Assembly: GCA_943704525.1 (NCBI GenBank)
Contig: CALSCQ010002720.1
Coordinates: 1 to 35,959 of the forward strand
DNA length: 35,959 nucleotides
Reading direction: 5' to 3'
DNA from: Pigoraptor vietnamica
Taxonomy: Eukaryota; Opisthokonta; Filasterea
Within the stretch, counting starts at the first letter, position 1. Every line of letters starts with the position of its first letter. A program made the position numbers and the translations under genes. This document shows, one piece after another, positions 4,596 through 9,115 of this stretch. The notes beneath the pieces are model-generated. The model searched no databases. It was not told the DNA's origin and saw nothing but the letters and a program-made list of their open reading frames with translations.

Positions 4596-7500
4596 ATGTG
4601 CACTTCAGCGGTGAGTGCTGTTTGCACGTGGTACTCGTGTTACCCGGACAGTCCGGACGACTGCTGCAGTCAGCGCGCCCAAATATTCCCACATTGCGGC
4701 TGCGCTGACACGGCAACGGCGATGTTCCTCTCTCTCTCTCTCTCTCTCCCCCTCAACTCTATTTTCACACAGAAACACACCGAAAGGCGCCTCTCAAACT
4801 CCAACCCTCTCCTCGCATTCCTCTCTCGCGGCGGTGAAATGAAGGCGTGCAAGGCAAGCTCCAGTAACGGCGGCGCCCACAAGGCCTCTTCCCGCGACGC
4901 CTTTCTCAGCGCCCTCGCGCAGCACAGGGACGCGAATGGCGGGTTTGTGCAGGTGCGTCTGCCCACTGTGCGTATGCTGTGCTCGCGATGTGCGACGCGC
5001 GGCATTTCGACGCACACTCTTATAAACGGAAAGTTAACTTGCTCTGTATCTAACATTCCCACGTTTCAGATTCCAACGACGGCGTTTCTGAGTCTCATCG
5101 CGGAGGCTGCCGGTGGCGAAGATGCGCGCCGTCCGCCGACGACGCCCTTTCTTCTTCGCCGCGTGGCGCTGAAGGGGATTGCGCACGAGGCCGCCGCCCA
5201 CTTTGACGCGACCGTGCAGGTGCGTCTGTTATGAATGCGACTACGTAACGAAAGTCGCAGTGTGCTCTGCGCAATTGCAATGTATGAATAGTGCGTGCGT
5301 GGTCGCCACGTGACACTACTGTTGTGAGCGACCTTCCACATTTGTAACCACCTCGACTCACTCTGATAATGGTATAATAGGTGTCAGTCCTCGCCGACGG
5401 CTGGGTCACGTGCCCGCTGTTTGCCGACAGCGTCGCCGTCCTCTCCTCGAACGTTCGCTCAACCCGCGGCGACGACGACGACGCGGCCAGCGCGCACTTG
5501 GGCGTGGTCGATGGGACCCTCGCGCTCGCAACCAGCCAGCCCGGCGACTACACGGTGTCGCTGTCGTTCAGTGTGCCGTATGCGACGGCGCGTGCGACGG
5601 GCTTGCGACTGGACCGCATTCCGCGCTGCGTTGAGAACTCCCTCGAGTTTGTGGTGCCGCACGCGGGCGTCCGCATCAAGGTTGAGCCGGCGTACGAGAG
5701 TGGGTGTTACGTGCGCTGTGTCGCTTCGGATTGGGCACGTGCGTTTTTTCTTTGTTTTTTTTTTTTGTTGTTGTTGTCTAGCTGTCGCATGTGAGCACGG
5801 CCTCATGTGCGTGCATCAACGGTCATATGCAGCCACACAGGCGCACGTTGCGGCCGCGGCAGAGTCGCCCTCTGGCGGTGAGCGCATCACGTGCGCGTTT
5901 CCGACGTCCGATTCGCTGAACATTCAGTGGATGCGCGTGGACCAGGCCGACGAGCTGCTGCAGGGGTGCGTGCCGTGCTAGTGCGCACAGTGGCGCGACT
6001 GGAAAAGGAGTGTGTGCGTCAATGCACGTGTGCTGTGTGTGTGTGTGTGTGTGTGTGTGTGTGTGTGTGTGTGTGTGCGTGTATGTGTGTGTGCGGGGGG
6101 TATGTGTGTGTGTGTGTGTGTGTGTGTGTGTTTGTGTGCGTGTATGGGTGTGCGAATGCGTGAAGCCGATCGCTGTATTTGCTTTTCTTTGATGTTTTGT
6201 TCAGCACTCTGCAGTTGCTGTGTGCCTACTGACGAGTGCTGCAACCGCAGCGAGACGGAGCGCGCGGCGGAGAAGTCCCTTGTGACTGTGGAGCAGCACG
6301 TGCTCATGTCCATCGGCGAGGGAATGGTCGCGTGCACCGCCAAGTTCGACTACAACATGGTCCACAAGTGCGTTCCTTCTTTGAGCAGAGTGCATATGGC
6401 CCCTTGTTGTTTGTTATGCGCACGCACGTGCTGAGCCAAAATTCAGTACTGTATTCTCACTGTGTGTGGACTGTTTGCAACCGCCCTGACGCCGTTTGCC
6501 GTTCCGGGGACGCACCTGTAACGCGAACCGGCCACTAACCCCCGCTGTCTTCGCAGCACCAAGTCGGTGTTCGACATTGCGTTCAGTGGCAGCGCGCGCA
6601 TCCTCTCTGTGGAGGGCGATGCGATCAAGCGCTGGGAGGTCTTCGAGTACGAGCGGCTGGACGTCCCCACGCGCGCGTCGCTGGACGCTCTCGGCTCGCA
6701 CGACGAGAAGGGCAAGGAGCGCCTGGGTGGGCTGCGCTTGCGCACACACGCGCACGTCCACAAAACATGCGCTTGCACACTATCGGGCGGCACGCGGATG
6801 TGCTTGTCGCTTTAACACAGCGTGAGTAGCTCTTTTCATAGCTCATGCATTTCGTTTGCATTCGCCGCAGAGCCAATGCGCCTCCTGCGCGTGCTGCTGG
6901 ACTACGGCGTTGAGGGCGCGTACAGCCTCCTTGTTGCGGCAGAGACGGACATGGAGTCGACGTCGTGCCAGACAGACACGCCCTCGTTCGCGAGCCTCGA
7001 CGTCGACCGCGAGAAGGGCCAGCTTGCTGTGGAGGTGTGCGCTCTTTTTCTGTTTGACGCTGCTAATGTCACCGCGGAGAGTTGCGACCGGTCGTGTCGG
7101 CTACTGGTGTTGGCTCACGTGATCGTGTGTGTTATGGTCTCCAGGCGCGCACTAATGTCGAGATCAAGGAAGTCAGCACACAGGTGGGACCTTGTCACTT
7201 GGTGTGGGAGTGCGAATGTCATCGCATACCGTTACTTCGTTTCGTCCCTACGTGTGTGCATGCTCTCGTGTTAGTACAGGACTCTGCGTCGTTCGTCCCC
7301 TCCGTGCTCACGCTGTCGATGTGCAGGTGCTGGCGAAGATCGACGTGCGCGAGGTCTCCGAGACGATTGCTCAGTCGGCGTCGAACCCGCTCCTCCTGGC
7401 CTACAAGTTCCTGCAGCACGGGTACCGCCTCCGCGTCGACGTCACGAAGCACGGTGACGTGGGCGTGCTCATCTGCATCACGGACACGGCGTGGCTCGAG

Positions 7501-9115
7501 GTGACGCACGCGGATGCAAAGACGCTGTACAGGTGGGTGGGGGTCACGTGGTCGGGGCGCAAGTCAATCTATGCGCTGACAGGCATATAATTTCGCGGTC
7601 ACTGTGTCGCAGGTGCGTCCTTCGCATGCGCAACACTCAGAAGCAGTACATGCGCGTGGCCATTCCGGACTTTGACAAGGTGGAGCTGTGGTCGACGACC
7701 GTGCGCGGCGTCGGTGAGTGGGCATGCCATTGTTACTTACTCAAATGAATCATTTTGGATGTGCGAATAGCGCATGTGGTGCACCAATGGCGACATCTGC
7801 TTGCCGTTTCGCACGCGCAGACTTGTTAGAGTGTGTCTGACGAAAGCCCACTCATGCAGCGGTGCGCCCTGCGTTGGACCGCGACACCAACGCCATCCTC
7901 GTCCCCCTCGAGAAGACGTCGGCGTCGGAGACGAACAGCAGCGGATTCACCGTCGAAATTGTGTACCTCTCCTCCGCTGTGGGAGCCATGTTCGACACGG
8001 GGAGCCTGGTGGGTCCCGTGCGTCGCCTGTGTATAATACGCGGCTGCTCTCGCCCTCGCTCACCTTCTGTTTGCAAATCGTGCGCAGTCTGTCCCACTGC
8101 CGCGCTTTGACGTCCCCATCAACCACCTGTTCGCCACGCTCTATCTGCCGGAAACGCACCGCTACGGCGTGTTCGCTGGCGACCTCAAGGTGGCGTAATC
8201 GTTGCTGCCAGTGCAAATTTGTTTGTCCGGGGCCCAAGTTCGATTTGCATCACGCACCCTCTTTGATATCTGTCCTTTGGGCTTCAACAGCGCGTGCGAT
8301 TCCTGTCGGAGGCGACGCCCCGCAGCGAGGAAATTCGCGAGGAGAACCGCCCGGCCGGCGGCGCTGGCAGGGTAAGTGCGCATCAGTTGGGCGCATGATC
8401 GAAGCTGAGGACCCCTTCTCACGTGCGTAGCATGCACCGCAGCCGCAGTATATGGTGCAGAACATGATGCCGCAGCAGCAGCAGTTGCAGCGGCTCGAGA
8501 GCGTGTCCAGCTTGCGTGGGGGCTTTGGCTATGAGAATGACATGAAGGAGGCTCAAAAGTACAGCTCGTCGAACCGTATGTTCAGCAAGAAGATGGACAA
8601 GGGCGTCATCCCCGTCAAGGCACGTGCTGAAACGGGAATCACTCGCCACTCTATCATGCCTATGCCTGTGTGTGTGTGTGTGTGTGTGTGTGTGTGTGTG
8701 TGTGTGTGTGTGTGTGTGTGTGTGTTGTGTGTGTGTGTGTGTGTGTGTGTGTGTGTGTGTGTGTGTGTGTGTGTGTGTGTGTGTGTGTGTGTGTCGCTAC
8801 TTAACTGTTGTCTCGGTCCCGGTGTAGGTGACGGAGCTTCGCATCGGCCGCGAGTATTATTTCGAACGCCTTCTCGTGTGCGACGAGGCCCTTCGCGTGT
8901 CGGTGGACTACGACAAGGACGCAACCGAAAAGTTCAAGGACGAGCGCAAGAAGGCATGCGATTGGCGTGTCCTGCTTGTGGTGTGACACGGTGTAGAATT
9001 GATTCTGTAGTCTGAAGGGTGTGAGGCGTGTGTGTGCGTTGGATGGCCACTCTCGCCTGTCCCTTTTGGCTCAACGGTGTCTCTGTCCCTTTTGCAGCCC
9101 TGCACCATCCTCTAA
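4596..9115 (+). CDS. large beta-rich protein of a family otherwise known to me from bacteria; 17 exons
   Basis: Exons: 4596-4610, 4773-4952, 5070-5219, 5381-5710, 5841-5965, 6251-6367, 6557-6726, 6871-7034, 7145-7183, 7327-7532, 7613-7713, 7860-8008, 8088-8189, 8291-8371, 8431-8619, 8828-8953, 9098-9115; about 753 aa, all in phase. Blocks resemble a family of large uncharacterised beta-sandwich-like proteins I recall mainly from planctomycetes and other bacteria: [85 protein letters not shown] and [20 protein letters not shown]. There is a Gln-rich insert near residue 660. No signal peptide or membrane span is evident and no function is known. The 5-codon first exon is less sure than a start at 4839. 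The last intron (donor GCATGC) and the C-terminal residues are uncertain. The intron at 8620 has a GC donor. Confidence 0.8.
6034..6136 (+). repeat. (TG)n microsatellite in intron
   Basis: About 100 bp of TG dinucleotides with a few interruptions (GCGTGTATG, GCGGGGGGTA) fill the middle of the intron 5966-6250. Open frames here reading Val-Cys or His-Thr repeats are artefacts of the repeat. Confidence 0.95.
8667..8794 (+). repeat. (TG)n microsatellite in GC-AG intron
   Basis: This is 128 bp of nearly perfect TG repeat with one break near 8724. It lies inside the intron 8620-8827, whose donor is GC rather than GT. Confidence 0.95.

Follow-up and report, generated by a model that had tools for sequence, protein, structure and literature searches.

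How does a gene of bacterial type come to sit, cut by introns, in the genome of a filasterean, and what might its product do there? The question is raised by a gene on the forward strand of contig CALSCQ010002720.1 of Pigoraptor vietnamica (assembly GCA_943704525.1), positions 1 to 35,959 of which form the window analysed here. A first-pass annotation, made from the sequence alone, had described a beta-rich giant protein gene of a family known mainly from planctomycetes and other bacteria, interrupted by 16 introns and long resident in its host. We find that the gene encodes a 738-residue protein, which sequence comparison places firmly in an unnamed prokaryotic family. Record labels place this family in many prokaryotic phyla, with at least one eukaryote in addition, and the members scanned have no Pfam or NCBIfam family and no PDB sequence match.

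An intron-bearing gene of a prokaryotic family

Joining the exons by splice consensus and reading frame gave a model of 16 exons (4839-9115, +) with a frame that stays open over all 738 codons. All but one of the 15 introns would disrupt the frame if left in, so this long open frame is not due to chance. The G+C content is 85% at third codon positions and 53% in introns, and the intron borders are GT-AG in 13 cases and GC-AG in the last two. The profile search proposed in the first-pass annotation for the joined exons was carried out with a profile (alignment A4) of 48 prokaryotic members of 500-900 residues. It matches residues 27-193 and 221-725 of 738 with 385.7 bits, and all five of the conserved blocks named earlier are present in the spliced translation. 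Because of this match, the gene model is sound apart from both of its ends and a single junction. Residues 1-26, the junction of exons 3 and 4 (residue 207, between the two matched pieces) and the last junction lie outside the match; the linker junctions at residues 601 and 628 lie inside it and are poorly aligned. That the gene is cut by introns was thus borne out, with 15 in the model; homology supports a start at 4839, and the sixteenth intron would need an extra first exon at 4596-4610, which is possible and has no homology support.

Relatives were collected by a motif-alignment-guided scan of genome_contigs, in which 82 of 165 pattern matches encode relatives by tblastn; the best 80 of these 82 were taken as loci, and a scan steered by motifs is no measure of true abundance. 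All 80 match the full 738-residue query at E <= 1e-3; the strongest match (9e-62) spans residues 73-711, and the best identity to the P. vietnamica protein is 28% over the aligned length. This protein keeps 42 of the 59 strongly conserved columns (leave-one-out values for the 48 members: minimum 66%, median 93%). The locus labels include Omnitrophota, Altiarchaeota, Deltaproteobacteria/Myxococcota, Hydrogenedentota, Verrucomicrobia, Aminicenantes, Acidobacteriota and others; Planctomycetota appears on 3 of the 80, and the earlier emphasis on planctomycetes was not upheld within such a scan. Within the class of Plesiocystis, 33 of 144 genomes have a profile match (E <= 1e-10); the counts are 6 of 78 for the phylum of the Omnitrophota genome and 5 of 29 for that of the Altiarchaeota genome (both E <= 1e-20), the centre genome being counted each time. 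The family is therefore widespread but patchy. Its Altiarchaeota members (L010, L015, L016 and L019, from four bins) form their own clade and are probably genuinely archaeal. One further locus, L051, comes from a bin labelled Klebsiella pneumoniae, and this label is likely wrong, because the gene groups with Proteobacteria/Deltaproteobacteria-labelled rows in a Myxococcota-rich clade.

The description of a bacterial-type family without assigned function held for the members scanned. Pfam offers no family for the P. vietnamica protein at E <= 5, and none that is common to more than two of the 48 members at E <= 1. Weak matches in these members (DUF7713, best E 0.0035; TRAP alpha, NOMO and CarboxypepD_reg, best E 0.04-0.08), seen in two members each and among 25 of 38 families listed, are not relied on. 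NCBIfam gave nothing for the P. vietnamica protein and two sub-threshold matches only among seven members, and PDB sequences matched neither the protein nor the profile at E <= 10. Single-sequence scans found no relatives in genome_contigs, viral_contigs or plasmids (plasmids by tblastn, E <= 1), and guide alignments A1-A3 produced pattern matches and no relatives in viral_contigs. Scanning the window for Rfam families and for tRNAs gave no match. A defence-system identity was rejected, PADLOC giving no hit at E <= 0.01 for six family-related proteins (four members, one paralogue and one neighbour, with the P. vietnamica protein outside the set). Searches of the open-access literature, for the family and for links between Ost1 and M1 or between Ost1 and bacteria, listed no paper that describes the family in its title or the abstract shown.

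Fold and cellular address

Structures were predicted for two relatives with 25-35% identity to the P. vietnamica protein. In both models three beta domains resembling the M1-aminopeptidase N-domain (M1-N) follow in tandem, in line with the expectation of a beta-rich protein with a consistent domain set, and in Foldseek searches with both models the eight best rows were ribophorin I/Ost1, subunit 1 of the oligosaccharyltransferase (OST). Of eight matches at E <= 0.001 in a viral fold library, none has a convincing TM-score. The HEXXH zinc motif is absent from the P. vietnamica protein and from 80/80 relatives.

Prokaryotic members look exported, many of them with C-terminal membrane helices as anchors. 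A hydrophobic N-terminal core lies within the first 110 residues of 43 of the 44 complete members, and within the first 45 in 39 of them; in the exception, L028, it lies at about 142-168, and the start was therefore probably called too early. Membrane helices end many members, and in the Myxococcota/Planctomycetota group (17 rows) the C-terminus comes directly after the C-terminal hairpin. Between the third beta domain and this hairpin, bacterial members have a variable linker. The Gln-rich insert that had been read as a eukaryotic mark sits in this same linker and loses that meaning.

The eukaryotic protein differs at both ends. Hydropathy was taken as the best 11-residue mean over equal stretches, the true start being a prediction. 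For the P. vietnamica protein it is 1.18 over residues 1-45 and rises to 1.75 over residues 1-110, with the 1.75 peak at residues 39-49, inside the conserved part; 43/44 complete prokaryotic members reach 2.26 or more in their first 110 residues. Neither modelled start has a strong N-terminal hydrophobic core (1.18 and 0.87), and by hydropathy only the model has no signal peptide. A membrane helix is also missing, and with it the Ost1-type combination of such a helix and a cytosolic ribosome-binding tail, the best 19-residue mean being 1.45, inside beta domain 1. The C-terminus consists of a basic stretch followed by CTIL, which we take to fit a geranylgeranyl-type CaaX box, and the PCTIL end is retained under four in-frame donor choices to the acceptor at 9098. 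If this CaaX end is right, the protein would be cytosolic and membrane-tethered, opposite to its prokaryotic relatives.

The gene product is a eukaryotic member of a prokaryotic envelope family whose members, going by the models of relatives, are built from three M1-N/Ost1-type beta domains, a variable linker and a C-terminal hairpin. We propose that the protein, with its export signal missing, would be made in the cytosol, where geranylgeranylation of CTIL could hold it on the cytosolic face of a membrane. There, its beta domains might bind protein or peptide segments, and the protein could work as a non-catalytic scaffold. M1-N-type domains that lack a catalytic domain serve in peptide binding or scaffolding. 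This background, together with a review covering Ost1, is why we suggest such a role with modest confidence: in passages of that review Ost1 has two similar luminal beta domains and binds only glycosylated peptides, and the functions of non-catalytic OST subunits are still not clear (PMC7226087). By this analogy, we give about an even chance to the combined picture of an envelope-family member of old origin that has lost its export signal and become a cytosolic, prenyl-anchored, non-catalytic binding scaffold.

A broader form of the proposal is more tentative, and we would lean against it. Here, an envelope family with domains of the Ost1 ectodomain type would have crossed into eukaryotes and been turned inside out, losing signal peptide and helices and gaining a prenyl anchor, such that a periplasmic scaffold would now stand on the cytosolic membrane face. 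On this view the Ost1 ectodomain would have a bacterial counterpart, perhaps a distant relative, in this family.

Several observations weigh against the first of these proposals. The folds are those of relatives at 25-35% identity, not of the P. vietnamica protein itself, and pTM (predicted TM-score) is low in these models. Against Ost1, Foldseek gives TM-scores of no more than 0.20 and 0.36, and the overlay has a root-mean-square deviation near 20; agreement is therefore limited to single domains. Foldseek also matches integrin alpha, PIG-T and AP-2 mu chains (E 1e-6 to 1e-4), so part of the fold signal is generic to beta-sandwiches. No sequence link to ribophorin I was detected by hhalign (probability 0.3, equal to the reversed control), in what is a weak test with a single-sequence target. 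Function is argued solely from fold analogy, and the OST structures described in passages of the review are without chaperone-like folds (PMC7226087). At the gene level, the first 26 residues and the last exon have no homology support, exon 15 left unspliced would run on to a different C-terminal end, there may be an ATG further upstream, and reading without splicing from 4722, through a polypyrimidine tract, gives a mildly hydrophobic start (1.79). An exon-wise search of the assembly, insensitive as such searches are, found no partner paralogue.

Origin and competing explanations

One alternative is that the protein is still secretory, bound for the endoplasmic reticulum (ER), the surface or an organelle, with a signal peptide on an upstream exon and a fortuitous or unused CaaX box. 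A hydrophobic N-terminal core is the rule among prokaryotic members (43/44 complete ones), the frame upstream of the modelled gene is open as far as 4464, a plausible exon and intron lie at 4596-4772, and proteins of the ER lumen and of the cell exterior are among the closest folds. However, the modelled starts are weakly hydrophobic, the 1.75 peak belongs to the conserved part, the value of 1.79 is reached only by reading through the polypyrimidine tract unspliced, and CTIL follows a basic stretch and is kept under all four donor choices. We consider a secretory protein doubtful, though a real contender. It is very unlikely that the protein is a diverged form of the organism's own Ost1/ribophorin I or an M1 aminopeptidase that has lost its activity, as the fold similarity of the modelled relatives to both might suggest: a canonical ribophorin I is found elsewhere in the assembly (C560; PF04597, E 4.1e-82; PDB OST subunit 1 at 3.8e-78), the hhalign score is like that of the reversed sequence in the weak single-sequence test, the modelled relatives have three domains, and the P. 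vietnamica protein has no HEXXH and no Pfam hit at E <= 5.

As for how the gene arrived, we give next to no credence to a recent bacterial transfer or to assembly contamination. The relatives found are all prokaryotic, the eukaryotic side of the search being the P. vietnamica assembly alone; against this stand the 15 introns of the model, an identity that peaks at 28%, a lone branch, and the neighbouring genes, which are eukaryotic (F-box protein, IQCA1/DRC11, major facilitator superfamily (MFS), Arf-like and NOG1). The contig is eukaryotic, and residence in this genome, claimed from the start, is confirmed. Both trees that were built leave the protein by itself on a branch of 2.0-2.1 changes per site, in no supported group. 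The second tree, which left out paralogues and 5 of 48 rows (short or long-branched) and used groups named after the first had been seen, joins it to Myxococcota/Planctomycetota at a support of 76 only and disfavours a grouping with Omnitrophota/Altiarchaeota (p-AU 0.026, approximately unbiased test). Because of this lone long branch without a clear bacterial sister, the gene is old or fast-evolving, and the earlier "old resident" stands in that form. An overlooked family dating from early eukaryotes and kept in several supergroups has a probability just short of even. The long branch, the missing bacterial sister and the richness in introns speak for it, but fast evolution would give the same picture; it bears only on where the gene came from and can stand together with the proposed mechanism. 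The gene either came into the lineage long ago from a prokaryote, which is our best reading, or is an old eukaryotic gene kept in patches, and the comparison, with its single eukaryotic genome, fits both. An exon-wise search found no second copy in the 32.5-Mb assembly, with low power for divergent genes: the bacterial query L013 recovered only one exon of the P. vietnamica gene itself.

Gene architecture, neighbourhoods and known systems

The possible first exon (4596-4610, +; MCTSA), drawn from splice-site consensus only and followed by a well-formed intron (4611-4772), could be 5' untranslated or coding. All exons of the model lie on the plus strand. Exon 1 (4839-4952, residues 1-38) has no hydrophobic signal core and is matched by the profile from residue 27. 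Beta domain 1 starts in exon 2 (5070-5219), continues through exon 3 (5381-5738; M1-N/Ost1-type by the fold of a bacterial relative, with its 3' junction outside the profile) and ends in exon 4 (5833-5965), which holds the block SLNIQWMR and has a 5' junction picked by frame only. Beta domain 2 begins in exon 5 (6251-6367, with one named block) and extends over exons 6 (6557-6726, LSVEG..KRWEV), 7 (6871-7034) and 8 (7145-7183) into exon 9 (7327-7532). This exon carries another named block and the start of beta domain 3, again with the fold taken from a relative. Exon 10 (7613-7713) encodes the strongly conserved motif RNTQKQYMR, and exons 11 (7860-8008) and 12 (8088-8189, with a named block) complete the domain. 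The spliced translation of exons 2 to 12 is covered by profile matches, apart from the gap between residues 193 and 221 that holds the junction of exons 3 and 4. Exon 13 (8291-8371) encodes variable linker, and exon 14 (8431-8619) the Gln-rich linker and the start of the C-terminal conserved block (KGVIPVK), matched by the profile. Splicing of the following GC-AG intron (8620-8827) is supported, because homology is contiguous across it with no gap. The C-terminal beta hairpin and basic stretch lie in exon 15 (8828-8953, profile match), and exon 16 (9098-9115), from a predicted acceptor and without homology cover, encodes PCTIL and the stop.

Long (GT)n runs occur in two introns of the gene (6035-6160 and 8666-8794, the latter in the GC-AG intron), and similar runs are present on the contig carrying ribophorin I in the same assembly (L092, L093). 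Elsewhere in the window, 9441-11333 (-) pairs an F-box protein with a long region of, by eye, several membrane helices, an unusual combination. The ciliary gene IQCA1/DRC11 lies at 22503-24876 (+), with PDB matches 9fqr and 8j07 (E about 1e-100) from exon 23617-24876; its presence indicates that the host is probably of a ciliated lineage.

At 738 residues, the P. vietnamica protein is not the giant it was once called. Giant members occur among the bacterial relatives: 28 exceed 1,400 residues, and complete ones measure 2,184-2,660. By homology cluster, 7 of these 28 have a divergent ECF-type (extracytoplasmic function) sigma factor, three of the seven being confirmed by Pfam; for some of the other giants the sequence upstream is too short to judge. 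All seven are Verrucomicrobial by record label or taxonomy. At these loci (L064, L065, L067, L072, L076, L085 and L087), the sigma factor is joined by a 416-516-residue protein, also divergent to the giant member; two such proteins scanned gave no Pfam hit. The arrangement looks like a self-regulated envelope locus.

In 19 of the 80 loci, some with short flanks, a diverged same-strand tandem paralogue adjoins the gene at a median distance of 3 bases, and the paralogue positions are also matched by the profile. Among these paralogues (L034:5749-9060, L051:6435-9167 and 17 other loci), some have Pro-rich or low-complexity tails, and Pfam has no match for that of L034. Bacterial neighbours were set aside as a clue to function: of 624 open reading frames surveyed, 35 were picked and 20 scanned by Pfam (one being the L034 paralogue), and these 20 are unrelated enzymes, membrane proteins or proteins without a family. 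One neighbour cluster lies near seven loci, mostly non-adjacent; the two of its proteins that were scanned proved to be histidine kinases. A VIT and VWA domain protein (L016:4700-6988) immediately follows one Altiarchaeales member, and directly downstream of one WOR-3 member is an Rce1-like membrane protein of the CAAX-protease family (L046:11308-12027), a single case and perhaps a coincidence.

The P. vietnamica gene could serve as a test case for how a protein made for export may come to be directed to the cytosolic face of a membrane. The bacterial family may offer a prokaryotic parallel to the Ost1 ectodomain, a non-catalytic part for which both role and origin are still poorly understood. 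Passages of published accounts place Ost1 in eukaryotes and in TACK and Asgard archaea (PMC11417166) and describe the evolution of the non-catalytic OST subunits as little known (PMC4973528). For this reason, a bacterial family with tandem Ost1-like domains is of interest even without a sequence link. The ectodomain of ribophorin I/Ost1 shares tandem beta domains of the same fold with the models of relatives, but it has two rather than three, no sequence similarity was detected, and it is ER-luminal with one membrane helix in a protein of which P. vietnamica has its own copy. Unlike M1 aminopeptidases and LTA4 hydrolase, which share the N-terminal domain, the family has no HEXXH, and the relative models contain no catalytic domain. 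CaaX-prenylated cytosolic proteins likewise end in a motif such as CTIL after a basic stretch, yet the P. vietnamica protein is not a small GTPase, and its prenylation is predicted only. The closest comparison remains the prokaryotic family itself (for example, the 628-residue Plesiocystis pacifica protein L034, Omnitrophota L013 and Altiarchaeota L010), which has the same length class, domain order and C-terminal hairpin, whereas the P. vietnamica gene has introns and a CaaX end and lacks an evident signal peptide and a C-terminal membrane helix.

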